This document shows positions 40,275 to 52,457 of a stretch of DNA of 64,000 nt, piece by piece. Both the position numbers and the translations under genes were made by a program. This stretch comes from Rhodopseudomonas palustris (lineage in GTDB: Bacteria > Pseudomonadota > Alphaproteobacteria > Rhizobiales > Xanthobacteraceae). A model generated the notes under the pieces. That model was given only the letters and a program-made list of their open reading frames with translations. It was not told the DNA's origin and ran no database searches. Within the stretch, counting starts at the first letter, position 1. Each line of letters starts with the position of its first letter. Location: positions 248,001 through 312,000 of the forward strand of contig NZ_CP019966.1 in NCBI RefSeq assembly GCF_003031265.1. The letters run 5' to 3'.

Positions 40275-41573
40275 TCAGCGCCCGCCGAAAGCTTTCAGCG
40301 CCGCCGCCAATTCAGGATGGCTGGCGGCGTGATCAGCTACCGGGATGCCCGCAGCGATCGCGTCCCAAGCCTGCCGGATCGATGCCGCCCCCGCGGCCGG
40401 TCCCATCGGGTGGCCGAACACGCCGCGGCCGGGCACGAAGCCGAAATCGGCGCTGCCGACCTTGCGATACACAGTCTCCAGCGTCGCCGCTGAATCGCTG
40501 CCGCCTGGCACCGGCAGACACGGCTTGATCGGTCCCATCGGCTCCAGGCAGGCGCGGATGCAGTCGAGCACCTCGCGCTCCGGCGTCATCATCCGCGGAC
40601 CGAAGCCCGGCATGATCACGACGTCGAAGCCAGCCAAGCGCTGCAGTCGCGTCATTACCCGCGAATGAATGCCGTAATTCGCCAGCCGGCTGAACGCGGC
40701 GATGAACGGGAAATGTGCCATCAGCGGCACGGTCGCGTGCTTACGCAGCATCCGCACTGCGGACAGCCCGACAGGCATTGCATTGACCAGCAGCGCGCCG
40801 GCTCCCTTGGCGACCGCGACATCGTGCAGCTCGGTCAGCCGATCAACCTCGTCAGTGATATTGGCGAGATAGATTTTCGGCACACCGGTTTCGTCAGCGG
40901 CCCGACGGCAGGCATCGCCCAGCAGTGCGGCGCGCTCGGCCAGCGGACACCAATCGACATCCGCCAGCATCTCATCGTCCTTGGCGATATCGAGACCGCC
41001 GGTCCAGCTCTGATAGCCGAGCTCGGCGAACGGCTGCGGCGGCAGGCCGATATTCGGCTTGATCACGCCGAAAAAGATCGGACGATCGAACGCCTGCAGT
41101 CGCTCGCGTAAGCCTGCGATGCCGAAGCGCGGACCATCGAACGCTGCGAGATACGATTCGGGGAAGCGGATGTCCTGCAGCCGGATCAGCGGAATGCCCG
41201 GCGAGAAGAACACGCCCTCGCCGCACACGGCCGACAACAGGTTGGGAATCTTTGCGCCGAAATTGCCGTGCGGATGCGCAATGGTGACGCGGCAGGCATG
41301 CACCTCGCCGCGCGCTGCGCACTCGACCGGAATGCTGAAGCCCGACGGACGCGGCTCCGCCGACAGCTCCAGCACCTTGGCGGCGAAGCGCGGACGGAAA
41401 TCTTCGTCGAAGCCCACCCGGCGCCACTGCGCCGTCGACTGCTCGCTGCACAGATGCGCCGCGGCCTCGCGCGGATCGCCGGCGCATTCGAAATCGAAAT
41501 CCAGCTCGATGTATTGGTCGAGGTCGAGATCCGTGCGCTTGGCGTGGAAGCCTGCGATGTCGTCCGGCGTCAT
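40275..41573 (-). CDS. RuBisCO-like protein (form IV)
   Basis: 432 residues. The RuBisCO large-subunit fold is clear: [11 protein letters not shown] (strand 1), [11 protein letters not shown] (strand 2), and the later [14 protein letters not shown] and [14 protein letters not shown] segments. By eye, Lys198, Asp200 and Glu201 of the carbamylation and Mg site remain, as does Lys172, but Lys177 is Asn174, the His-His-Arg segment after strand 5 reads AHFPFIA, and loop-6 lysine is absent. Carboxylase activity is not expected. Rhodopseudomonas has such proteins of the photosynthetic form IV group with unknown reactions (recall). Confidence 0.9.
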
Positions 41574-41604
41574 GGCTGATGACCTGTCTGGTGATACCGC
41601 TGCG

Positions 41605-41636
41605 GTCATACGCGGGCACGGCCCGCGTATCTATCC
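41605..41636. repeat. Half copy of repeat family B
   Basis: GTCATACGCGGGCACGGC with the pairing GCCCGCGTAT arm and trailing CTATCCGG, a diverged version of the left half of family B. It lies between the RuBisCO-like gene and yjbQ-type gene. Confidence 0.5.
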
Positions 41637-41685: not shown

Positions 41686-42108
41686 TTAACCGATGATCTG
41701 CAGCTCGACGCCGCGGCGCTCGCGCGGACCATCGAGCTCGATGAAGAACACCGACTGCCATTCGCCGAGCACCATGGCGCCTTTGGCGACCGGAATCGTC
41801 TCCGACGAATTCATGAACAGCCCGATCAGATGCGAGTGCGCGTTGTCGCGGCCGTCGACCGGATCGAGATTGTGCAGATAGTCGCCGTCGCGCGGTGCGA
41901 ACCGCTTCAGAAACGTCAGCATGTCGCGCTCGAGCTTTTCCTCGCGCTCGTTGACGTTGATCCGCGCGGTGGTGTGCAGGCAGCTCACCGTAACCAGACC
42001 ATCCTTGATGCCGCTCGATGTGACGAAGCGGCGGACCTGATCGGTGATGTCGATCAGCTGGATCGGCGCGGTGGTGGCGAGTTCGATACGGTGACGTTGA
42101 ATCTGCAT
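41686..42108 (-). CDS. YjbQ/UPF0047 family protein
   Basis: 140 residues. GLVTVSCLHTTARINVNE, HNLDPVDGRDNAHSHLIGLF, and GEWQSVFFIELDGPRERR are the conserved blocks of the YjbQ family; the conserved Cys-x-His and HSHL histidines form the presumed active site. Family members show weak thiamine-phosphate synthase activity in vitro; the real role is unknown. It lies upstream of the RuBisCO-like gene on the same strand, 112 bp apart. Confidence 0.9.
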   Translation of the reverse strand: MQIQRHRIELATTAPIQLIDITDQVRRFVTSSGIKDGLVTVSCLHTTARINVNEREEKLERDMLTFLKRFAPRDGDYLHNLDPVDGRDNAHSHLIGLFMNSSETIPVAKGAMVLGEWQSVFFIELDGPRERRGVELQIIG

Positions 42109-42333: not shown

Positions 42334-44271
42334 ATGAGACCGGCCTATCGCAGCGATATCGATGGCCTGCGCGCGATCGCAGTGCTGCTGGTGGTTGGGT
42401 TCCACGCCTTTCCGGCCGAGATCCGCGGCGGCTTCATCGGCGTCGACGTCTTCTTCGTCATCTCGGGCTTTCTGATCACGTCGATCATCTGCCAGGCGCT
42501 CGACCGCGGCGACTTCAGCTTCGCCACGTTCTACGCCCGCCGCATCAACCGCATCTTCCCCGCACTGCTGCTGGTGCTGGCGGCCTGCGCGATCGGCGGC
42601 TGGTTCCTGCTGTTTCCCGTCGATTATCGCGACGCCGGCAAGGCGATCGGCTTCGGCGCTGCATTCCTCGCCAACATCGCGCTGCTGCATGACGCCGGCT
42701 ACTTCGACACCGCCTCCGAGCTGAACCCGCTGCTGCATCTCTGGTCGCTCGGCGTCGAGGAGCAGTTCTATCTGCTGTGGCCGCCGGTGATCATTCTGGC
42801 GTGGCGCTGGAGGAACGGCGCAGTGGTGGCCGCAGTGGCGATTCTGCTGGCTTCGTTCGTCACCAATCTGCTGCTGACACCGGCTCATCAATCAGCCGCG
42901 TTCTATCTGCCGGTGACCCGGTTCTGGGAGCTGATGACCGGCTGCCTTCTGGCGATCGCCACGGCGAACCGCGCGGCGCCATTTGCGCAGCACGCCGTCA
43001 CGCTGCGCAACATCGGGGCGATCGCCGGTCTCGCGCTGATTGCTACCGGTGCTGCCTTGATCGACCGCAGCCGCGCTTTTCCGGGTTGGTGGGCGGTGCT
43101 GCCCGTGCTCGGCGCCGCGCTGCTAATTGGCACAGGCCCTAGCACCTGGGTCGGGCGGCGGCTGCTCGGCAATCGCGCCATGGTTTATGTCGGGCTGATC
43201 AGCTACCCGCTGTATCTGTGGCACTGGCCGGTGCTCGCCGCGATCAGGATCGTGCGGCTCGGCGAGGAGCCGCCGCCGCTGATGAAGCTGATCGCGGTCG
43301 TGGTGGCGTTCGGGCTCGCCGATTTCACTTACCGGTTCGTCGAGCCGAAGATTCGCTATCGGGCGACCCGCGCCAAGACCGCCGCCGCTTTCGCCGGCGT
43401 CGCGCTTGTTGGGCTTCTCGGCGCGGGTATCTACTTGGCAAGCGGCTTTCCGGCACGCTTCAGCCCGAGCGTGCAGATCGTCACCCGCGATCACCAGGCC
43501 GAGGCGATGCTGGCATATCGGCTGAAGAGCTGCTTCCTCGGCTCGGGCTCGACCTTCGCGCGCGAGTGCGATGACGCCGCATTGCCCGGTGTGCCGAGAA
43601 TCACACTGTGGGGCGATTCCCACGCCGCCCATCTCTATCCTGGGCTGCGCGCCTTGCAGGAGAGCGAAGGCGGCTTTGTGCTATCGCAATACACCACCGC
43701 GGGCTGTCCGCCGATCTTCGGCTACGTCAGTGCTCAGACACCGGGCTGCACCGCCGCCAACGCCAATGCGCGCGAGCGGCTGAACGCGATCAAGCCTGAC
43801 ACGGTGATCCTGGTGGCGCGGCAGTGGCACGATTACGACGGCGCCGACCGCGATCCCGCGGCGATCGACGCGATGATCAAGGCGACGCTCGCTGAACTGC
43901 GCAGCATCCGCGTCCGGCGGATCGTCGTGGTGGGGAAATTTCCGAGCTGGCGAACGCCGCCGAAGCGGATTTTGGCGCAGGCCTACCGGTCCGAGGCCGC
44001 CGGCCTGATCTCCGCATCCGAGATCCCGACGCGCGACGGCCCGCCCCGGCTGGATCGCTCGGAAGCCGAAGCCAATGAACAGCTGCGCGCTTTCTTCGCC
44101 GCGCTAGGCGTCGAGTTCATTTCGCCGACGCCGGTCTATTGCAACGATCAGGGCTGTCTGCTCGCCGTGCCCGGCAGCGGCACGCCGGTGACGTTCGACG
44201 GCAGCCACCTGACGATTGCGTCGTCGCAATTCTTCGTCAGGCAGTTCGCGAAAGAGCTGCTCGGCCGCTAG
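42334..44271 (+). CDS. Acyltransferase-3 with C-terminal SGNH domain (OafA/OatA type)
   Basis: 645 residues. The N-terminal half (about 1-375) has ten or so transmembrane helices with the YRSDIDGLRAIAVLLVVGFH start and the GVDVFFVISGFLI motif of integral acyltransferases; HLWSLGVEEQFYLLWP holds further conserved residues. The C-terminal half is a periplasmic SGNH hydrolase-like domain with LWGDSHAAHLYPGL (GDSH serine block) and a terminal DGSHLT motif. Such enzymes O-acetylate LPS O-antigen, peptidoglycan or exopolysaccharide. No glycan genes are adjacent, so the target is unknown. Confidence 0.92.
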   Translation: MRPAYRSDIDGLRAIAVLLVVGFHAFPAEIRGGFIGVDVFFVISGFLITSIICQALDRGDFSFATFYARRINRIFPALLLVLAACAIGGWFLLFPVDYRDAGKAIGFGAAFLANIALLHDAGYFDTASELNPLLHLWSLGVEEQFYLLWPPVIILAWRWRNGAVVAAVAILLASFVTNLLLTPAHQSAAFYLPVTRFWELMTGCLLAIATANRAAPFAQHAVTLRNIGAIAGLALIATGAALIDRSRAFPGWWAVLPVLGAALLIGTGPSTWVGRRLLGNRAMVYVGLISYPLYLWHWPVLAAIRIVRLGEEPPPLMKLIAVVVAFGLADFTYRFVEPKIRYRATRAKTAAAFAGVALVGLLGAGIYLASGFPARFSPSVQIVTRDHQAEAMLAYRLKSCFLGSGSTFARECDDAALPGVPRITLWGDSHAAHLYPGLRALQESEGGFVLSQYTTAGCPPIFGYVSAQTPGCTAANANARERLNAIKPDTVILVARQWHDYDGADRDPAAIDAMIKATLAELRSIRVRRIVVVGKFPSWRTPPKRILAQAYRSEAAGLISASEIPTRDGPPRLDRSEAEANEQLRAFFAALGVEFISPTPVYCNDQGCLLAVPGSGTPVTFDGSHLTIASSQFFVRQFAKELLGR

Positions 44272-44279
44272 TCTAATCC

Positions 44280-44876
44280 TCAGGCGGGCAGGACCGCCGC
44301 GCAGGCGCGGCCCGCGACATCGGCCGCCGACGGATCGCGCGTCACCAGCGCCATCACGATCGCGCCGTCGATGACCAGACCGAGCGTGTGGGCGACTTCG
44401 GTCGGCTGTTCGATCCCGGCTTCGGCACACAGAGCGGTGAGACGATCCAGCACGATCGTCTTGTGCGCGATCGCCAGACTCCGCATCCGATCGTCGTTCT
44501 TGTCGGATTCGCCGACCGCATTGATGAAGGGGCAGCCGTAGAAGTCGCCGCGGGTAAACCATTCTTTCAGCGCCGGGCCGATCCGTCCGAGCCGCTCGCG
44601 CGCGGTTCCGCCTGGCCCATCGATCGACTCCAAGAACCAGCTACGCCAGCTCTGGCCCTCGCGCTCCAGCACAGCTTCGACGAGGCCATCCTTCGAGCCG
44701 AACAGCTTGTAGAGGGTGGTCTTAGCGGTGCCGGCTTGTTCGATGATCGCGTCGACGCCGACCGAATTGATGCCGTAGCGGCAGAACAGACTGCGGGCGC
44801 TGTCGATCAGCCGCTCGCGCGGCGACAGCTTCGCCTCGACGGCGGGATCGATCACGAGGTGCGCAGCGTCTGCCAT
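44280..44876 (-). CDS. TetR family transcriptional regulator
   Basis: 198 residues. The N-terminal helix-turn-helix (LFCRYGINSVGVDAIIEQ, then AGTAKTTLYKLFGSKDGL) binds DNA; the C-terminal ligand domain includes FYGCPFINAVGE. It is divergent from the OsmC-led cluster across 269 bp, with a perfect inverted repeat 40-59 bp before the OsmC start, so it is the likely repressor of that cluster (inference). The ATG at 44876 is chosen over one further upstream. Confidence 0.92.
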   Translation of the reverse strand: MADAAHLVIDPAVEAKLSPRERLIDSARSLFCRYGINSVGVDAIIEQAGTAKTTLYKLFGSKDGLVEAVLEREGQSWRSWFLESIDGPGGTARERLGRIGPALKEWFTRGDFYGCPFINAVGESDKNDDRMRSLAIAHKTIVLDRLTALCAEAGIEQPTEVAHTLGLVIDGAIVMALVTRDPSAADVAGRACAAVLPA

Positions 44877-45086
44877 GGTTCGGCACATACCGCGACATTT
44901 CGGACTGCGCAATCGAGGAAACCGAATGGTCTGTTCACAGCCCAGGATTTGCCGCTGAAGCAGGCATTTGCCGCGCCATGTGATCGCAAATGCGCCCCGC
45001 CTCTAGAATGGGCACGTGGCATTAACGCCTCCTCCCCTGATTCCGCTGTGGTTTTTGCAGTGCGGGACTTTGGCACGCTTCGTGCT

Positions 45087-45106
45087 GATACAGAACGGTC
45101 TGTATC
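45087..45106. promoter_or_regulatory. Candidate TetR operator
   Basis: Perfect inverted repeat with 8-bp arms GATACAGA (45087-45094) and TCTGTATC (45099-45106) and a 4-bp centre, in the divergent promoter region between the TetR gene and the OsmC gene. Size and symmetry fit a TetR-family operator. The arms resemble operators of several TetR regulators (recall). Confidence 0.65.
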
Positions 45107-45145
45107 CAAAAGCGCTGTCAGCCGATTGGCAGCAGAGGAGATCCC

Positions 45146-45718
45146 ATGACAAAAGCCGCCACCGCCGTGACCGCCTGCCTGACCCCCGACAGCCCGACCG
45201 CCCTGACCGGCTGCCTTACGCCGATCGACAAGGCCGGCCTCGACGATCTGATCGCCAAGGGCAAGGCCGACCCGACGGTGATCAAGACGCTGAAGTGCAA
45301 GACCATCGCCGAAGGCCGCTTCCGACACCTCAATTTCATCCGCTCGCTGCCGCCCTACGTAGTCGATGAGCCGCCGGGCCTGCTCGGCGACGACACCGCG
45401 CCGAACCCGTCCGAAGCCTCGCTCGCCGCGCTCGGCTCGTGCCTCGCAGTCGGCATCCACGCCAACGCCGTCGCTAAGGGCATCACCGTCTACAAGCTCG
45501 AGATCGAGCTCGAAGGCGACCTCAACATCACCGCGGTGTGGGGCACCGGCGACCTGTCCGACAAGCCAGTCGGCTTCACCGATGTGCGCGCCAAGGTGAG
45601 CTTCGAAGCCGACCGTCCGCGCGAAGAACTGGAAGCGCTGGTCGCGCATGCGCGGCTGTGGTCGCCGGTGGCCAACACCTTCTCCCGCCCGGTCAATCTC
45701 GACGTTGCGATGGCCTGA
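45146..45718 (+). CDS. OsmC family protein
   Basis: 190 residues. The OsmC/Ohr fold is shown by DEPPGLLGDDTAPNPSEASL, AALGSCLAVGIHANA (conserved Cys) and the C-terminal RLWSPVANTFSRPVNLDV. Two extra cysteines lie near the N-terminus (ACLTPD, GCLTPI) and one in TLKCKT. Classical members reduce organic hydroperoxides with paired cysteines; this type occurs near sulfur and acyl-CoA genes and may instead handle a thiol. First gene of the cluster, with a GAGGAG site 7 nt before the ATG. Confidence 0.88.
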   Translation: MTKAATAVTACLTPDSPTALTGCLTPIDKAGLDDLIAKGKADPTVIKTLKCKTIAEGRFRHLNFIRSLPPYVVDEPPGLLGDDTAPNPSEASLAALGSCLAVGIHANAVAKGITVYKLEIELEGDLNITAVWGTGDLSDKPVGFTDVRAKVSFEADRPREELEALVAHARLWSPVANTFSRPVNLDVAMA

Positions 45719-45751
45719 CCAAGCAGCCCCACCAAACGGACGAGAACAACG

Positions 45752-46882
45752 ATGTTGGATGTCCAGTCAGTGAGTAAAGGCGACGCCACGGTGCTGCCCG
45801 GCGCCGAAGTCGTCGAGGCGGTGCGCGCGCTGGCGGCGCGCGAACTGCCGCCGCTGGTCAACACCATCGACGTCGACGGCCATTATCCGGAAGCTCAGAT
45901 GCGCGCCTTCGGGCGTCTCGGCGCCTACGCGCATCATCTGCCGGGAATGAGCCCGAGCGTCGATCTGATGACCGCGATCAACGCGATGGCGGCGGCCGGC
46001 GAGCACTGCCTGTCGACGTCGTTCTGCATGTGGTGCCAGGACGCGCTGGGTTGGTACATCTATGCGTCCGACAACCAGCATCTGCGGACCAGTGTCGGCC
46101 CGCAGATCGCCAGCGGCGCAGCACTCGGCGGCACCGCGCTGTCGAACCCGATGAAGTCGCTATTCGGGATCGAGCCGATGCGGCTGAAGGGCCGCCGCGG
46201 CGACGGCGGCTACATCGTCAAGGGCTTGTTGCCTTATGTCTCCAACCTCGGCGCCGACCATTACTTCGGCGCGATCTTCGAAGTCGAGGACGGCGGCAAC
46301 ACGCGCAACGTGATGGCGGTGATTCCTTGCAACGCGGAAGGTGTGAGCCTTGCCGACAATGCGAAGTTCACCGCGCTCGACGGCACCCGCACCTTCGCGG
46401 TGCAGATGCGCGACGTGGTGGTGCCCGAAGCTTGGGTGCTAGCCGATCCGGTTGATCCGTTCATCAAGCGGATCCGCGCCGGGTTCATCCTGCTGCAGGC
46501 GGGTATGGCGTTCGGCCTGATCCGGGACTGTCTGCGGCTGATGCAGCAGACCAAGGCGCCGCTCGGCCACGTCAACAAATACCTCGACGTGCAGCCCGAG
46601 CCGATTGCCGAACAGCTCGAAGCAATGGAGGTCGAGGTCGCGCGCCTCGCCGCGACCCCGTTCGAGGACGACCTCGGCTATTGGCGCGCAGTGATCGAGG
46701 CCCGGCTCGCCGCCGGCGATGCCTCGGTCGCGGCGGCGCATGCGGCGATGCTGCATTGTGGGGCGCGCGGCTATGTGGCCGGTGCCGTCGCACAGCGCCG
46801 GCTGCGCGAGGCTTACTTCGTCGCCATCGTCACCCCGGCCACCAAGCAACTCCGCAAGATGCTCGCGGACATGGCGCACTAG
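45752..46882 (+). CDS. Acyl-CoA-dehydrogenase-fold flavoprotein without the usual catalytic Glu
   Basis: 376 residues, the normal length for the fold. The N-terminal helical domain (AEVVEAVRALAARELPPL), the beta-domain (RGDGGYIVKGLLPYVSNLG, FAVQMRDVVVPEAWVL) and the C-terminal helical domain are recognisable. The region that in fatty-acid dehydrogenases reads YEGT reads IVTPATKQLRKML, so the classic catalytic glutamate is missing there. Relatives beside sulfonate-type transporters act as flavin monooxygenases or sulfur-acquisition oxidoreductases. A monooxygenase role is inference. Confidence 0.82.
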   Translation: MLDVQSVSKGDATVLPGAEVVEAVRALAARELPPLVNTIDVDGHYPEAQMRAFGRLGAYAHHLPGMSPSVDLMTAINAMAAAGEHCLSTSFCMWCQDALGWYIYASDNQHLRTSVGPQIASGAALGGTALSNPMKSLFGIEPMRLKGRRGDGGYIVKGLLPYVSNLGADHYFGAIFEVEDGGNTRNVMAVIPCNAEGVSLADNAKFTALDGTRTFAVQMRDVVVPEAWVLADPVDPFIKRIRAGFILLQAGMAFGLIRDCLRLMQQTKAPLGHVNKYLDVQPEPIAEQLEAMEVEVARLAATPFEDDLGYWRAVIEARLAAGDASVAAAHAAMLHCGARGYVAGAVAQRRLREAYFVAIVTPATKQLRKMLADMAH

Positions 46883-47011
46883 CCCGCGAGACGCCATCGC
46901 GCGGCCCGCGCCAGGCGCGGGCTGCACCTTCAACGCTCGGCTCCAGGGAACCGCCCTGGAGAGCACTCAGACAACGACGTCTTGACCCAACAACGAGCAC
47001 TGGAGCGACTG

Positions 47012-47893
47012 ATGACTGACAAGGTTCTTGTATCGCCCGCCGAACTCTCCGAGATGATCGCCGCCGGCGGCACCGTGGTGATCGACACCCGCGACCCGGC
47101 AACTTACGCGGCAGGACACATTCCCGGCGCCGTCAATGTCCACGACATCTTCACCTATCTCGCCACTTCGACCCCAGAAGGCATTGCCGAGATGCGCGAC
47201 AAGTTCGCGGCGATCTTCGGCGCCGCAGGCCTGTCCGGCGAAGAGACCGCGGTGATCGCGGAGCAGTCGATGAACACCGGCTTCGGCCAGTCGTGCCGCG
47301 GCTATGTGCTGCTGAGCTACCTCGGCTATCCCAAGGTCAAGATCCTGCACGGCGGCACTAGCGCCTGGGTCGCCGCCGGTCTGCCGACCACCACGGACGT
47401 GCCGACACCGGCGCCGAAGACCTTCAAGGTCGACCCGGCCGCCGCATCGATCCTGGTCGATCTCGAAGGCATGAAGGCGGCGGTCGGCGATTCCAGCAAG
47501 GTGAAGCTCGATACCCGCGACGTCGACGAATGGGTCGGCGAAAGCTCTTCGCCCTACGGCAAGGATTTCTGCCCGCGCAAAGGCCGCATCCCCGGCGCGG
47601 TGTGGATCGAGTGGTACCGAATGATGAAGCCGTCGGCAGCCGGTCCGATGTTCAAATCACCGAACGAGATCCTCGCCGAATGCGCCACGGTCGGCATCAC
47701 GCCGGACACACCAGTGGTTCTGTACTGCTTCAAAGGGGCGCGCGCCTCCAACACCCTGGTCGCCTTGAAGGAGGCCGGCATCAAGGACGTCAGCCTGTAC
47801 TTCGGCTCCTGGAATGAATGGTCGCGCGATCCGTCGCTGCCGATCGAACAGGGTCTGCCCTACGCGGCACAGCCGCTGATGGCAGCGGAGTAA
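47012..47893 (+). CDS. Double-rhodanese sulfurtransferase
   Basis: 293 residues with two rhodanese domains: about 1-130 (VVIDTRDPATYAAGHIPGAVN) and about 150-290 (KLDTRDVDEWVGE, GRIPGAVWIEWYRM). The second holds the likely catalytic cysteine in LYCFKGARASNTLV. In the first, the corresponding region reads AEQSMNTGFGQSCRGYV with a displaced Cys. The family transfers sulfane sulfur to thiols or cyanide. Its place between a flavoprotein and an ABC transporter points to processing of a sulfur-bearing substrate (inference). ATG at 47012, GGAGCG upstream; 130-bp gap before it. Confidence 0.88.
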   Translation: MTDKVLVSPAELSEMIAAGGTVVIDTRDPATYAAGHIPGAVNVHDIFTYLATSTPEGIAEMRDKFAAIFGAAGLSGEETAVIAEQSMNTGFGQSCRGYVLLSYLGYPKVKILHGGTSAWVAAGLPTTTDVPTPAPKTFKVDPAAASILVDLEGMKAAVGDSSKVKLDTRDVDEWVGESSSPYGKDFCPRKGRIPGAVWIEWYRMMKPSAAGPMFKSPNEILAECATVGITPDTPVVLYCFKGARASNTLVALKEAGIKDVSLYFGSWNEWSRDPSLPIEQGLPYAAQPLMAAE

Positions 47894-47964
47894 TCGCCCC
47901 CGGCACCGGCCGTGGCCGGTGCCGTCCCTTCCCGATCTCCACGATACGAAGGAGCGGCGGCCGC

Positions 47965-48828
47965 ATGCCGGCATATCAGTCGAAGAAGTCTTGGCCCGGC
48001 GCACACATCACGATTCAGGGAGTCAGCCATCGCTATCGCCGCTCCAGCAACAAGGTGCTCACCACCATCGATCTCGAGATCAAGCCGTGCGAGCAGCTCG
48101 CGCTGGTCGGCCGTTCCGGCTGCGGCAAGTCGACATTGCTGCACATCATCGCCGGCCTGACCAAACCGACGACCGGCGAGGTCCGTATCGACGGCGCGCT
48201 GGTCGAAGGCCCGTCACCGCACTGGATCGTGATGTTCCAGCAGCCCAACCTGTATCCGTGGATGAGCGTGGCGCAGAACATCGGGCTCGGCTTGAAATTC
48301 GCCGGCCGCCCGAAGAAAGAGATTGCCGCCCGCGTCGAAGAGTTGCTGCACCTCGTCGAACTCGACGGCTACGGCAGCCGCAACGCGCAGGATCTGTCCG
48401 GCGGGCAGCAGCAGCGCGTTGCACTGGCACGATCCCTCGCTGTCGAACCCGAAGTGCTGCTGCTCGACGAGCCGTTTTCCGCACTCGACGCCGTCACGCG
48501 CCGCGCATTGCAGCGCGACGTCCGCCGCATCGCCGAAGACATGAAGATCACGCTGGTGATCGTCACCCACGACATCCCGGAAGCTGTGGCGATGGCCGAC
48601 CGCGCGGTGGTGATGGCGTCCGATCCCGGACGGATCGCCGAGACGGTGGCAATCGAGATTGACCGCCGCGATCCTGATCCGGAGCGCCGCGCCACCAGCG
48701 TCGCCGCCGCGCAGGCGAAGCTGCAGGTCGCCTTCGAGCGCGCAACCGGCCGCGCGCTACACGGCGGCCCAAGCCCGGCCCTCGCTGAATCCGCCCCGCT
48801 CAAGATCGTCGCCGCCGGCGCCCGCTAA
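47965..48828 (+). CDS. ABC transporter ATPase, nitrate/sulfonate/taurine type
   Basis: 287 residues. Walker A GRSGCGKST, Q-loop MFQQPNLYPWMSV, signature LSGGQQQRVALARSL, Walker B VLLLDEPFSALDAV and switch VTHD are intact. The layout matches SsuB/TauB/NrtD ATPases, with a 45-residue extra C-terminal tail. AAGGAG lies about 10 nt before the ATG. It energises the import system made with the next two genes. Confidence 0.93.
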   Translation: MPAYQSKKSWPGAHITIQGVSHRYRRSSNKVLTTIDLEIKPCEQLALVGRSGCGKSTLLHIIAGLTKPTTGEVRIDGALVEGPSPHWIVMFQQPNLYPWMSVAQNIGLGLKFAGRPKKEIAARVEELLHLVELDGYGSRNAQDLSGGQQQRVALARSLAVEPEVLLLDEPFSALDAVTRRALQRDVRRIAEDMKITLVIVTHDIPEAVAMADRAVVMASDPGRIAETVAIEIDRRDPDPERRATSVAAAQAKLQVAFERATGRALHGGPSPALAESAPLKIVAAGAR

Positions 48829-48840
48829 CAGGAGACCTCC

Positions 48841-50079
48841 ATGTGCATCAATTGCGGAGATGACATCGTCCATCCCGAAGACAACCGCTTTCGGATCACC
48901 CGCCGGCAGACGCTCGACATGCTGGCCGCGGGCGGGCTCGCCGCGCTCGGCACGATGCTCGGTGGTTTCGGCCAGGCCGCGCGTGCGGCCGACGATGAAG
49001 TGGTGCGGATCGGCTATCTGCCGATCACCGACGCCACCGCACTCCTGGTCGCGCACGGCATGGATTACTTCAAGGACGAAGGGCTGGAAGCCGAGCGCCC
49101 GACCCTGATCCGCGGCTGGTCGCCGCTGGTGGAGAGCTTCGCGGCCGGCAAGTTCAATCTGGTGCATCTGCTCAAGCCGATCCCGGTGTGGATGCGATAT
49201 AACAACAATTTCCCGGTCAAGATCATGGCTTGGGCTCATACCAACGGCTCCGGCGTCGTGGTCGGCAAGGAGACCGGGATCGAGTCGTTCAAGGACCTCG
49301 GCGGCAAGCAGGTCGCGGTGCCGTTCTGGTACTCGATGCACAACATCGTGCTGCAATACGCGCTGCGCAAATCCGGCATCAAGCCGGTGATCAAGGGCCA
49401 GAGCGAGCCGCTCGCCGCCGACGAATGCAATCTCCAGGTGATGGCACCGTCCGACATGCCGCCGGCGCTCGCCGCCAAGAAGATCGACGCCTACATCGTC
49501 GCCGAACCGTTCAACGCGCTCGGCGAAACCAAGGCCGGCGGCCGGATGCTGCGCTTCACCGGCGACATCTGGAAGAATCACCCCTGCTGCGTGCTGTGCA
49601 TGAACGAGGAGGTGACGAAGAAGAAACCGGAATGGACCCAGAAGGTGATGAACGCGCTGGTCCGCGCCGAGATCTACGCAAGCGCCAATAAAAAGGAGGT
49701 CGCCAAGCTGCTGTCGAAGGACGGCGCCGGCTATCTGCCGCTGCCGGCCGAGGTGATCGAGCGGGCGATAACCTATTACGACGACAAGGCTTATGGCGAG
49801 ACCAACGCCATCACTCACCCCGAGTGGAAGCTCGGCCGCATCGACTTTCAGCCGTGGCCGTATCCATCGGCCACTCGGCTGATTGTCGAGGCGATGAACG
49901 ACACCGTCGTGGCCGGTGATAAGACGTTCCTGAAAAAGCTCGATCCGGATTTCGTCACCAAGGATCTGGTCGACTATGCGTTCGTCAAGCAGGCGATGAC
50001 CAAACATCCGGACTGGAAGAACTCGCCGAGCGTCGATCCGGCCGACCCGTTCACCCGAACCGAGGTGCTGGCGCTGTGA
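48841..50079 (+). CDS. ABC substrate-binding protein with CxxC N-terminus and Tat signal
   Basis: 412 residues. The binding domain (VVRIGYLPITDATALLVAHG, FAAGKFNLVHLLKPIPVW) belongs to the NrtA/SsuA-type family. Unusually the N-terminus is MCINCGDDIVHPEDNRF, with a CxxC pair ahead of a twin-arginine segment (ITRRQTLDMLAAGGLAALG). Export by Tat would be as a folded protein. A CCVLCMNEE segment adds more cysteines. Its stop overlaps the permease GTG by 4 nt. The ligand is not known. Confidence 0.88.
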   Translation: MCINCGDDIVHPEDNRFRITRRQTLDMLAAGGLAALGTMLGGFGQAARAADDEVVRIGYLPITDATALLVAHGMDYFKDEGLEAERPTLIRGWSPLVESFAAGKFNLVHLLKPIPVWMRYNNNFPVKIMAWAHTNGSGVVVGKETGIESFKDLGGKQVAVPFWYSMHNIVLQYALRKSGIKPVIKGQSEPLAADECNLQVMAPSDMPPALAAKKIDAYIVAEPFNALGETKAGGRMLRFTGDIWKNHPCCVLCMNEEVTKKKPEWTQKVMNALVRAEIYASANKKEVAKLLSKDGAGYLPLPAEVIERAITYYDDKAYGETNAITHPEWKLGRIDFQPWPYPSATRLIVEAMNDTVVAGDKTFLKKLDPDFVTKDLVDYAFVKQAMTKHPDWKNSPSVDPADPFTRTEVLAL

Positions 50080-50912
50080 GTCTCGACCTGACCCTCGACG
50101 ACACCGCCGCGATTGAGCCATCGCGGCGAACCGGCGAACACCTCGCCGGCCATGCACGCAGCTTCGGCTATGTGCTGCTCGGCATCGCCGCGCTGCTCGC
50201 GGTATGGTGGATCGGTGGGGCGCTCATCGCCGCCAATCCTCGCACCGCCAGCTTTGCCGACTTTGCGCCGCTCCCGACCTTTCAAAGGCTGTGGTCGATG
50301 CTGGCGTCGGGCGAAGCAGCCAAGATGGCGCTGCCGAGCTTGGCGCGGATCGGCGGCGGGCTGGCTTGGGCGATCGTGCTCGGCGTGCCGCTCGGCATCC
50401 TGGTCGGGCGGTTCAAAGGAATGCGCCAAGCCAGTTCGGTGCCGTTCCAGTTTCTGCGGATGATCTCGCCGCTCGCCTGGATGCCGATCGCCGTGATGGC
50501 ATTTTCGAGCTGGAACGGCGCGATCGTATTCCTGATCGGCGTCGCGGCGATCTGGCCGATCCTGTTCTCGACCGCGCACGGCTTCCGGCGAATCGATCCG
50601 GCCTGGTTCAAGGTCGCCCGTAATCTTGGCGCCCAGCCCTGGCACATGTTGTTCACCATCATCGTGCCGGCAATCCTGCAGGACGCACTTGCCGGCATCC
50701 GGCTCGCCGTCGGCGTCGCCTGGATCGTGCTGGTGCCGGCCGAATTCCTCGGCGTCACCTCGGGGCTCGGCTACGCCATCAACGACGCCCGCGACACGCT
50801 GGAATACGACCGGCTCGCCGCCACCGTGGTGATCATCGGCCTGATCGGCTTCACGCTCGACTTTCTCTGCGAACGTGCCGTCCGCCGCGCCAGTTGGGCG
50901 CGAGAGGAGTAA
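50076..50912 (+). CDS. ABC transporter permease
   Basis: 278 residues from a GTG overlapping the preceding stop. About six transmembrane helices; the EAA-type loop GFRRIDPAWFKVARNLGAQPWHM, which docks the ATPase, is intact. The family is SsuC/TauC/NrtB. It completes the ATPase-binding-protein-permease set. No gene of the cluster follows; 242 bp later comes tRNA-Gly on the other strand. Confidence 0.93.
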   Translation: MSLDLTLDDTAAIEPSRRTGEHLAGHARSFGYVLLGIAALLAVWWIGGALIAANPRTASFADFAPLPTFQRLWSMLASGEAAKMALPSLARIGGGLAWAIVLGVPLGILVGRFKGMRQASSVPFQFLRMISPLAWMPIAVMAFSSWNGAIVFLIGVAAIWPILFSTAHGFRRIDPAWFKVARNLGAQPWHMLFTIIVPAILQDALAGIRLAVGVAWIVLVPAEFLGVTSGLGYAINDARDTLEYDRLAATVVIIGLIGFTLDFLCERAVRRASWAREE

Positions 50913-51539: not shown

Positions 51540-52457
51540 GTGACGATTTTGGAGCAGGGCAGCGGTGCGGCGCCTCAGGCCGCCGATCTGATCAAGGACA
51601 CCACGACCCAGACCTTCGTCCGCGATGTGATCGAGGAATCCAAGCGCCAGCCGGTTCTGATCGACTTCTGGGCGCAGTGGTGCGGCCCGTGCAAGCAGCT
51701 CACCCCGATCCTGGAAAAGGCGGTTCGGGCTGCGAACGGCAAGGTCAAGCTGGTCAAGATGAATATCGACGAGCATCCGTCGATTCCCGGCCAGATGGGC
51801 ATTCAGTCGATTCCGGCGGTCATTGCCTTCGTGGACGGCCGTCCGGCCGACGGCTTCATGGGCGCGGTGCCGGAGAGCCAGGTCAACGCCTTCATCGAGA
51901 AACTGACCGCCGGCATGCCGGGCGGTGCGCCGACCGCCGCCGAGCTGCTGCAGGAAGCCGAGGCGGTGCTGGCGGAGGGTGATGTCCAGACCGCGGCCTC
52001 GATCTATGCCGAAGTGCTGCGGGCCGACGGCACCAATATCCAGGCGATCGCCGGGCTGGCCCGCTGCTATATGCAGACCGGCGCCACCGAACAGGCCAAG
52101 AAGACGCTCGGGCTGGTGCCCGAGGCCAAGCGCGAGGATGCCTCCGTCAAGGCCGTGCAGGCGATGATCGATCTTGCCGAACAGGCACAGTCGCTCGGCC
52201 CGATTGCCGAACTCGAACAGAAGGTCGCGGCCGATCCGCTCGATCATCAGGCGCGATTTGATCTGGCGATCGCGCTGAATGCCGCCGACCGGCGCGAGGA
52301 TGCGACCACGCACCTGCTCGACATCGTCAAGCGCGACCGTAAATGGAACGACGACGGCGCCCGCAAGCAGTTGGTGCAGTTCTTCGACGCCTGGGGACCG
52401 ACCGACGACGCCACCGTCGAAGGCCGCAAGCGGCTGTCGACGATTCTGTTCTCGTAA
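51540..52457 (+). CDS. Thioredoxin-TPR co-chaperone, CnoX/YbbN type
   Basis: 305 residues from a GTG at 51540. A thioredoxin domain (about 20-130) with Cys48-Gly-Pro-Cys51 in FWAQWCGPCKQLTP is followed by tetratricopeptide-like helices (from about 137). CnoX proteins protect unfolding clients from oxidation and pass them to GroEL or DnaK. The intact CxxC is as in alphaproteobacterial members rather than the E. coli SxxC form. Followed by a LON-domain gene and Trm112. Confidence 0.9.
   Translation: MTILEQGSGAAPQAADLIKDTTTQTFVRDVIEESKRQPVLIDFWAQWCGPCKQLTPILEKAVRAANGKVKLVKMNIDEHPSIPGQMGIQSIPAVIAFVDGRPADGFMGAVPESQVNAFIEKLTAGMPGGAPTAAELLQEAEAVLAEGDVQTAASIYAEVLRADGTNIQAIAGLARCYMQTGATEQAKKTLGLVPEAKREDASVKAVQAMIDLAEQAQSLGPIAELEQKVAADPLDHQARFDLAIALNAADRREDATTHLLDIVKRDRKWNDDGARKQLVQFFDAWGPTDDATVEGRKRLSTILFS

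Follow-up and report, generated by a model that had tools for sequence, protein, structure and literature searches.

Which compound would be handled by a gene set that combines an importer, a flavoprotein, a sulfurtransferase and an OsmC-family protein? This question is raised by a locus of Rhodopseudomonas palustris, whose genome in this assembly is a single contig of 5.27 Mb. The DNA analyzed here, hereafter the window, is a 64,000-nucleotide stretch of that contig (NZ_CP019966.1, positions 248,001 to 312,000). At positions 44280-50912 of the window, the Rhodopseudomonas-type locus consists of a TetR gene and, divergent from it, six plus-strand genes encoding an OsmC-family protein, a flavoprotein of the acyl-CoA dehydrogenase (ACAD) fold, a two-domain rhodanese, and the ATPase, binding protein (SBP1) and permease of an ATP-binding cassette (ABC) importer. 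A preliminary description of this DNA had read the cluster as a system for uptake and desulfuration of an organosulfur or sulfane compound. Our analysis suggests that it is a thiocyanate utilization system of the cyanate type, a reading to which we assign a probability of roughly 0.6 and in which the substrate is deduced from gene neighbors. It is very likely that the cluster is linked to sulfur and cyanate.

Conservation of the gene set was examined by searching a profile of 15 flavoproteins against the genome collection. Counts per 80 loci refer to the best 80 of at least 556 confirmed loci, in which gene presence was called by tblastn score limits (at least 100 bits for TetR); many of these loci are cut at contig ends, and the sample is skewed to close relatives and Bradyrhizobium. 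Long loci (n = 52) are those that extend over 5 kb or more upstream and 8 kb or more downstream. The best 80 loci contained OsmC in 79, rhodanese in 70, TetR in 70, SBP1 in 34, a second type of binding protein (SBP2) in 34, and cyanase (cynS) in 52; the sole OsmC-negative locus, L015, starts 53 bp before the flavoprotein gene. In the long loci, OsmC was present in 52, TetR in 50, rhodanese in 48, cyanase in 41, and SBP1 or SBP2 in 44. The pairing of the TetR gene with the cluster, drawn in the preliminary description from a single locus, is thus found in other genomes as well. Two arrangements recurred. Beside a divergent TetR gene, two Roseibium loci, Martelella and Oricola, for example, have the order ATPase, SBP1, permease, OsmC, flavoprotein, rhodanese, reductase, cynS, and many Bradyrhizobium loci have the order OsmC, flavoprotein, rhodanese, SBP2, a second permease, ATPase, cynS. 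By open reading frame (ORF) clustering of neighbors, a reductase gene was linked in 18 loci; no such gene was found within the window, although it is linked in some relatives. The gene set is therefore a real, conserved, TetR-linked unit, whose conservation in other genomes places it beyond chance. The distribution of the flavoprotein family is patchy. With the own genome counted, a single-sequence search at E 1e-40 detected it in 3 of the 385 genomes from the class, and a profile search at E 1e-50 in 16 of the 398 from the phylum. The window flavoprotein shares 97% identity with its counterparts in Rhodopseudomonas palustris XCP and R. pentothenatexigens.

A conserved palindrome lies between the divergent genes. 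The inverted repeat ATACAGAACGGTCTGTAT occurs at one site in the window when both strands are read (0 expected), and its 14-base core has a single genome-wide site at up to one mismatch. Homologous intergenic regions were available from the 62 loci in which both TetR and the downstream gene were found. At least 12 of the 14 core bases were present in 53 of these regions, compared with an average of 0.09 such regions in order-1 Markov resamples, a contrast that is somewhat overstated because the pattern was picked after viewing palindromes and the regions are related. The core was matched at all 14 bases in 14 regions, at 13 in 29, at 12 in 10, and at 11 or fewer in nine. This conservation points to binding of the TetR protein at positions 45088-45105.

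The strongest clue to the substrate, absent from the preliminary description, was linkage to cyanase. ORF clustering of neighbors yielded a family present in 49 of 80 loci that Pfam identified as cyanase. When long loci were counted by genus label, cynS was found in 24 of 32 (metagenome-assembled genomes without a genus name were counted apart). The gene comes next after the flavoprotein gene in loci L026 and L073, and next after the rhodanese gene in L049 and L051. Among 148 genomes of the own family, cynS was present in 43 of 44 flavoprotein-positive genomes versus 68 of 104 negative ones (Fisher p 6.6e-6, uncorrected for relatedness), and it lay no more than 15 kb from the flavoprotein gene in 16 of the 44. 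The own-genome cyanase (PF02560, 115.9 bits, G000:C1:2355066) is 2.06 Mb from the cluster and is preceded by SBP2-type importer genes. SBP2 also adjoins cynS in many Bradyrhizobium loci, and L036, L037 and L043 carry both importers.

Some further observations concern cyanase itself. In the own genome, a separate cyanate operon (G000:C1:2349400-2355320; L088 3430-9318) comprises genes for an SBP2-type binding protein, a permease, an ATPase and cynS, and is divergent from the gene for a 641-aa regulator that appears by eye to be of the sigma-54 type. Two cyanase subtypes, 46% identical, are represented by L047 13290-13775 and L088 8830-9318, the L047 type occurring in otherwise similar clusters. 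Locus L042 has two cynS matches, one upstream on the opposite strand and one right after the rhodanese gene.

Proteins from 93 loci were aligned (93 flavoproteins; 90 OsmC proteins of at least 120 bits and 67 rhodaneses of at least 150 bits, both without a stop), and adding the window sequence to each alignment gave 94, 91 and 68 sequences, respectively. Fold comparison assigned the flavoprotein to the ACAD fold, and its best PDB relatives by sequence were ordinary short-chain acyl-CoA dehydrogenases (SCAD), with XiaF at E 0.0068. The alignment to human SCAD stops at Ile359; the Y-E-G-T that we take to follow in SCAD would fall on V360-T361-P362 of the flavoprotein. At the SCAD position of the catalytic Glu, all 94 sequences have T361, followed in all 94 by P362, which supports the earlier claim that the usual Glu is missing. 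What is presumably the alternative, isovaleryl-type Glu position reads G244. Residues C86, C95, N132, V163, S164, E353, T361 and P362 are invariant in the 94 flavoproteins. With regard to FAD and CoA binding, what the SCAD comparison offers is the pairing of V163-S164-N165 with I-T-N of SCAD. Cysteine-based catalysis was considered and rejected, given that C86 and C95, kept in 94 of 94 near relatives, are yet Ser/Gly in the Bartonella protein, and that C193, C260 and C336 vary.

The OsmC protein matched its Pfam profile well above the cut-off (66.8 versus 27.5 bits) and departs from the two-cysteine pattern of OsmC/Ohr peroxidases: C99 is conserved in 91 of 91 sequences, and the second position is S173 in 91 of 91, at what we take to be the catalytic Cys positions. 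The protein cannot be described as single-cysteine, since further, less conserved Cys residues are present in most aligned OsmC sequences, in counts that are inflated by N-termini extended by up to about 25 codons. In the rhodanese (residues numbered from a TTG at 46982), the C-terminal domain carries the active loop C249-F-K-G-A-R-A, conserved as C249-F-K-G-x-R in 68 of 68 sequences. A second invariant cysteine, C105, lies in the N-terminal domain, and C105 and C249 occur together in all 68.

SBP1 belongs to the NMT1_2 family and fold, and its relatives by sequence and by fold are NrtA and CmpA, so that sequence and structural comparison place the predicted importer in the nitrate/bicarbonate class. 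By eye, the N-terminal end of SBP1 resembles a Tat signal. Filing under the sulfonate SSU/TAU systems was rejected by NCBIfam scores (SsuA_fam 108.9 versus 163.5; TauA models 27.7 versus 304.25 and 21.7 versus 490). Filing under the SAO system was likewise rejected, with SaoX at 57.5 versus 300, SaoA at 205 versus 360 and SaoP at 141.1 versus 295 (NCBIfam equivalog cut-offs).

More distant relatives were then compared. Plasmid-borne units combine OsmC and the flavoprotein with an importer, a rubredoxin-reductase-type protein and cynS: in Marinobacter, together with a sigma-54-type regulator and with the reductase as a rubredoxin-reductase fusion; in Acetobacter, with a 450-aa rubredoxin-reductase-like protein and an NrtA-like importer; and in Caballeronia (L120), with an SBP2-like importer and, after cynS, a protein of the metallo-beta-lactamase fold for which Blh is the top-scoring NCBIfam model (104 bits versus a cut-off of 625). 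In loci L109 and L110, from genomes of the same order, OsmC and the flavoprotein are accompanied by a rubredoxin-reductase and by a protein similar to the Blh dioxygenase, which scores 389 bits in L109 and 383 bits in L110 and so falls short of the fused-protein cut-off of 625; L110 also has cynS. PDB relatives of the L109 Blh-dioxygenase-like protein include 9g8t and 4ysk, and a short TauE-like stretch comes next in L109 (27.7 bits, below the cut-off of 32.6). Persulfide dioxygenase was rejected as a general member of the unit, as matches were limited to L109, L110 and L120, the last being the query itself.

In a second branch (Bartonella, the Synechococcus plasmid pANL, and paralogous units in two own-family genomes), an AhpD/CMD or SCO4226-like (DUF4242) protein replaces OsmC. 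Moraxella has a CMD protein, the flavoprotein, a rubredoxin-reductase and an NrtA-like importer. In a 1.8-Mb genome that appears to be Neisseria-like (L107 8587-10322), an AhpD/CMD protein immediately precedes a flavoprotein homologue (38% identity). Thiocyanate is abundant in mucosal fluids. Either OsmC or an AhpD-like CMD protein adjoins the flavoprotein in all distant loci checked except pANL. Synechococcus cysR mutants reportedly cannot use thiocyanate as a sulfur source, which we do not count as evidence. The pANL unit shares its stretch with cysK and carbonic anhydrase genes, and passages of PMC8049743 describe many sulfur-related genes on the plasmid as a whole. Units of the Bartonella/pANL type, with CMD, ACAD and importer genes, occur as paralogues (L123 9248-10885, L124 5598-9268, L125 5287-9745) in two genomes that also have a window-type flavoprotein, one of which, G646, has two such units.

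In this cluster and its relatives, genes for handling sulfur and genes for handling cyanate come together around a single importer and a single flavoprotein, which in some lineages has a reductase of its own. Among molecules that would give both cyanate and sulfane sulfur and suit an NrtA-class importer, thiocyanate is the simplest and the best fit. From these neighbors we infer a substrate, an oxygen chemistry, an electron path and an order of sulfur transfer. TetR would repress the operon from the palindrome 40 bp upstream of osmC, and the NrtA/CmpA-like importer would take up thiocyanate. With electrons from a ferredoxin-reductase-like or rubredoxin-reductase protein, the flavoprotein would form a flavin hydroperoxide that oxygenates thiocyanate, with release of cyanate. 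The sulfur would depart as sulfane or sulfenate, be trapped by the OsmC thiol, or in the distant branch by an AhpD-like protein, as well as by the rhodanese, and then be used or oxidized; the cyanate would be consumed by cyanase. It is possible, with the odds somewhat against it, that the flavoprotein founds a family of CoA-free, O2-dependent ACAD-fold enzymes acting on a small inorganic anion, namely cytoplasmic thiocyanate monooxygenases/desulfurases, for which OsmC/AhpD-like proteins would serve specifically to accept the sulfur and a ferredoxin- or rubredoxin-type reductase would supply the electrons.

Several findings weigh against a thiocyanate system. No cynS is nearby in 11 of 52 long loci, three of them from Rhodopseudomonas; genome G855 has the flavoprotein, OsmC and SBP1, and no cynS was found in it; and the distant CMD- or DUF4242-type units are without adjacent cynS. 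Within 19 kb around the Neisseria-like flavoprotein gene, no importer, rhodanese or cynS was found. Of the 80 loci, 10 lack rhodanese, as do 4 of the 52 long ones, SBP1 was present in just 5 of 14 flavoprotein-bearing genomes tested (0 of 5 in genus g2), and the persulfide-dioxygenase link is confined to three loci. With respect to the flavoprotein, C86 and C95 are lost in the Bartonella member, and the fold matches are mostly ordinary dehydrogenases, with the 3SP-CoA desulfinase (5af7) at ranks 45-46; fold alone therefore cannot reveal its chemistry.

The reading of the preliminary description, in which the importer would bring in an organosulfur compound or sulfonate, the flavoprotein oxygenate it, and the rhodanese and OsmC handle the sulfur, stands in part: import and desulfuration are retained. 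As to the substrate, an organosulfur compound leaves the cyanase linkage unexplained, and SBP1 falls under the SsuA/TauA cut-offs with a fold nearer to NrtA/CmpA, so that we regard this explanation as rather unlikely. Tolerance or assimilation of cyanide would accommodate the joint occurrence of rhodanese and cyanase, the rhodanese converting cyanide to thiocyanate, or the flavoprotein, which with its linked reductase could act as an oxygenase, converting cyanide to cyanate for cyanase to finish. Hydrogen cyanide (HCN), however, passes membranes without an importer, whereas 44 of 52 long loci keep an importer of the SBP1 or SBP2 type; moreover, 4 of 52 keep the flavoprotein without the rhodanese, and the persulfide-dioxygenase-like genes and the sulfur setting of pANL would go unexplained. 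We consider cyanide distinctly unlikely.

A defense against oxidant or thiol stress (hypothiocyanite, hydroperoxides), with OsmC or the AhpD-like protein as peroxidase and TetR as sensor, would fit the constancy with which OsmC (79 of 80 loci) or, in distant loci other than pANL, OsmC or an AhpD-like CMD protein accompanies the flavoprotein. It is very unlikely in view of the Ser at the second OsmC cysteine position in 91 of 91 sequences, and it accounts for neither importer nor cyanase. Finally, the importer class carries small anions and the cluster is linked to cynS, as would be expected if it imported and detoxified cyanate with the flavoprotein, OsmC and rhodanese as accessories; but it is SBP2, not SBP1, that stands beside cynS in the own genome as well as in many loci of Bradyrhizobium, some loci hold both importers, SBP1-type proteins accompany the flavoprotein without adjacent cynS, and the sulfur genes have no role in such a scheme, which makes it highly improbable.

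The features of the locus are given in Table 1. The seven genes have the coordinates and strands of the preliminary description, and all families were matched by Pfam. Spacing of the plus-strand genes is operon-like, with gaps of 33 bp (OsmC to flavoprotein), 129 bp (flavoprotein to rhodanese, given the ATG start at 47012, most likely the true start), 71 bp (rhodanese to ATPase, given a start at 47965) and 12 bp (ATPase to binding protein), and a 4-bp overlap of the binding-protein and permease genes.

Table 1. Features of the Rhodopseudomonas-type locus (window positions)
Feature	Position	Strand	Remarks
TetR-family regulator, divergent	44280..44912	-	TetR_N 49.1 bits; start TTG 44912, alternative in-frame ATG 44876
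Inverted repeat ATACAGAACGGTCTGTAT, candidate TetR operator	45088..45105		40 bp upstream of OsmC ATG
OsmC-family protein	45146..45718	+	PF02566 66.8 bits; C99 kept, S173 at usual second Cys position
ACAD-fold flavoprotein without usual catalytic Glu; proposed thiocyanate desulfurase/monooxygenase	45752..46882	+	Acyl-CoA_dh_N 35 bits
Two-domain rhodanese	47012..47893	+	PF00581 (Rhodanese) 118.9 bits in two stretches; ATG start
ABC transporter ATPase	47965..48828	+	PF00005 (ABC_tran) 115.3 bits; start codon uncertain, longest ORF from 47818
Periplasmic binding protein SBP1, NrtA/CmpA-like	48841..50079	+	NMT1_2 153.7 bits
ABC transporter permease	50076..50912	+	PF00528 (BPD_transp_1) 76.6 bits

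Nearby on the minus strand are genes for a RuBisCO-like protein (40275-41609; RuBisCO_large 174.5 bits; best NCBIfam match OiaX, 217.9, below the cut-off of 700) and YjbQ (UPF0047; 41686-42108). Both were rejected as unit members, since they occur in 3 of the 80 loci, each of them from Rhodopseudomonas. Between YjbQ and TetR lies an acyltransferase-3/SGNH fusion gene (42334-44271, plus strand; 4 of 80 loci, all Rhodopseudomonas), and downstream of the cluster is a thioredoxin-like ORF of 305 aa with an extended C-terminal part (51540-52457, plus strand).

If a thiocyanate system is correct, genes annotated as "acyl-CoA dehydrogenase family protein," "OsmC family protein" and "ABC transporter" would become a testable carbon-nitrogen-sulfur pathway of bacteria in soil and sea that could be useful for waste water containing thiocyanate, and a very large flavoprotein fold would gain a new reaction type. 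To our knowledge, the enzyme that acts on thiocyanate is not known in many heterotrophs.

No paper on this gene set was found in searches of an open-license library, and comparison was made with systems that share some of its parts. The bifunctional sulfurtransferase/dioxygenase Blh has matches to its dioxygenase part next to the L109 and L110 units; these proteins align with the last two thirds of the model, at the C-terminal side, and lack the N-terminal part. Such a protein is not present in the window. XiaF and the 3SP-CoA desulfinase are ACAD-fold proteins with chemistry other than acyl-CoA dehydrogenation, but 5af7 is only 13% identical to the window flavoprotein, for which no organic or CoA substrate is predicted. 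In the pANL unit, the flavoprotein is 32% identical and genes for an ABC ATPase, an SBP1-type binding protein and a permease adjoin it, as in the window, whereas a SCO4226-like (DUF4242) gene replaces OsmC and no cynS or rhodanese is annotated in the stretch shown. Operons that combine an NrtA-like importer with cynS have a related importer class, and in many relatives they share a neighborhood with window-type genes; over the 18 kb analyzed at the own-genome cyn operon, nothing matched OsmC, the flavoprotein or the rhodanese. A cyn gene cluster is described for P. pseudoalcaligenes in PMC6627978. The thiocyanate hydrolase ScnABC, which according to passages of PMC8061750 has three subunits and acts in the carbonyl sulfide pathway, would share with the predicted cluster the breakdown of thiocyanate; none of the seven cluster genes, to which the search was limited, was a ScnABC member by Pfam or NCBIfam. 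A parallel in predicted net outcome is the cyanate pathway, in which thiocyanate dehydrogenase (TcDH) converts thiocyanate to cyanate and reduced sulfur and cyanase then acts, as predicted for the cluster. TcDH is periplasmic. Passages of PMC8061750 place its pathway in Thioalkalivibrio and, by prediction, in an Afipia reactor strain, and the title of Tikhonova 2020, cited there, names a trinuclear copper center for TcDH; the candidate in the cluster is instead an ACAD flavoprotein served by an ABC importer. Were this confirmed, copper TcDH and the hydrolase would be joined by a third route for thiocyanate, one distributed among bacteria from soil, marine and mucosal settings and also present in a cyanobacterium.

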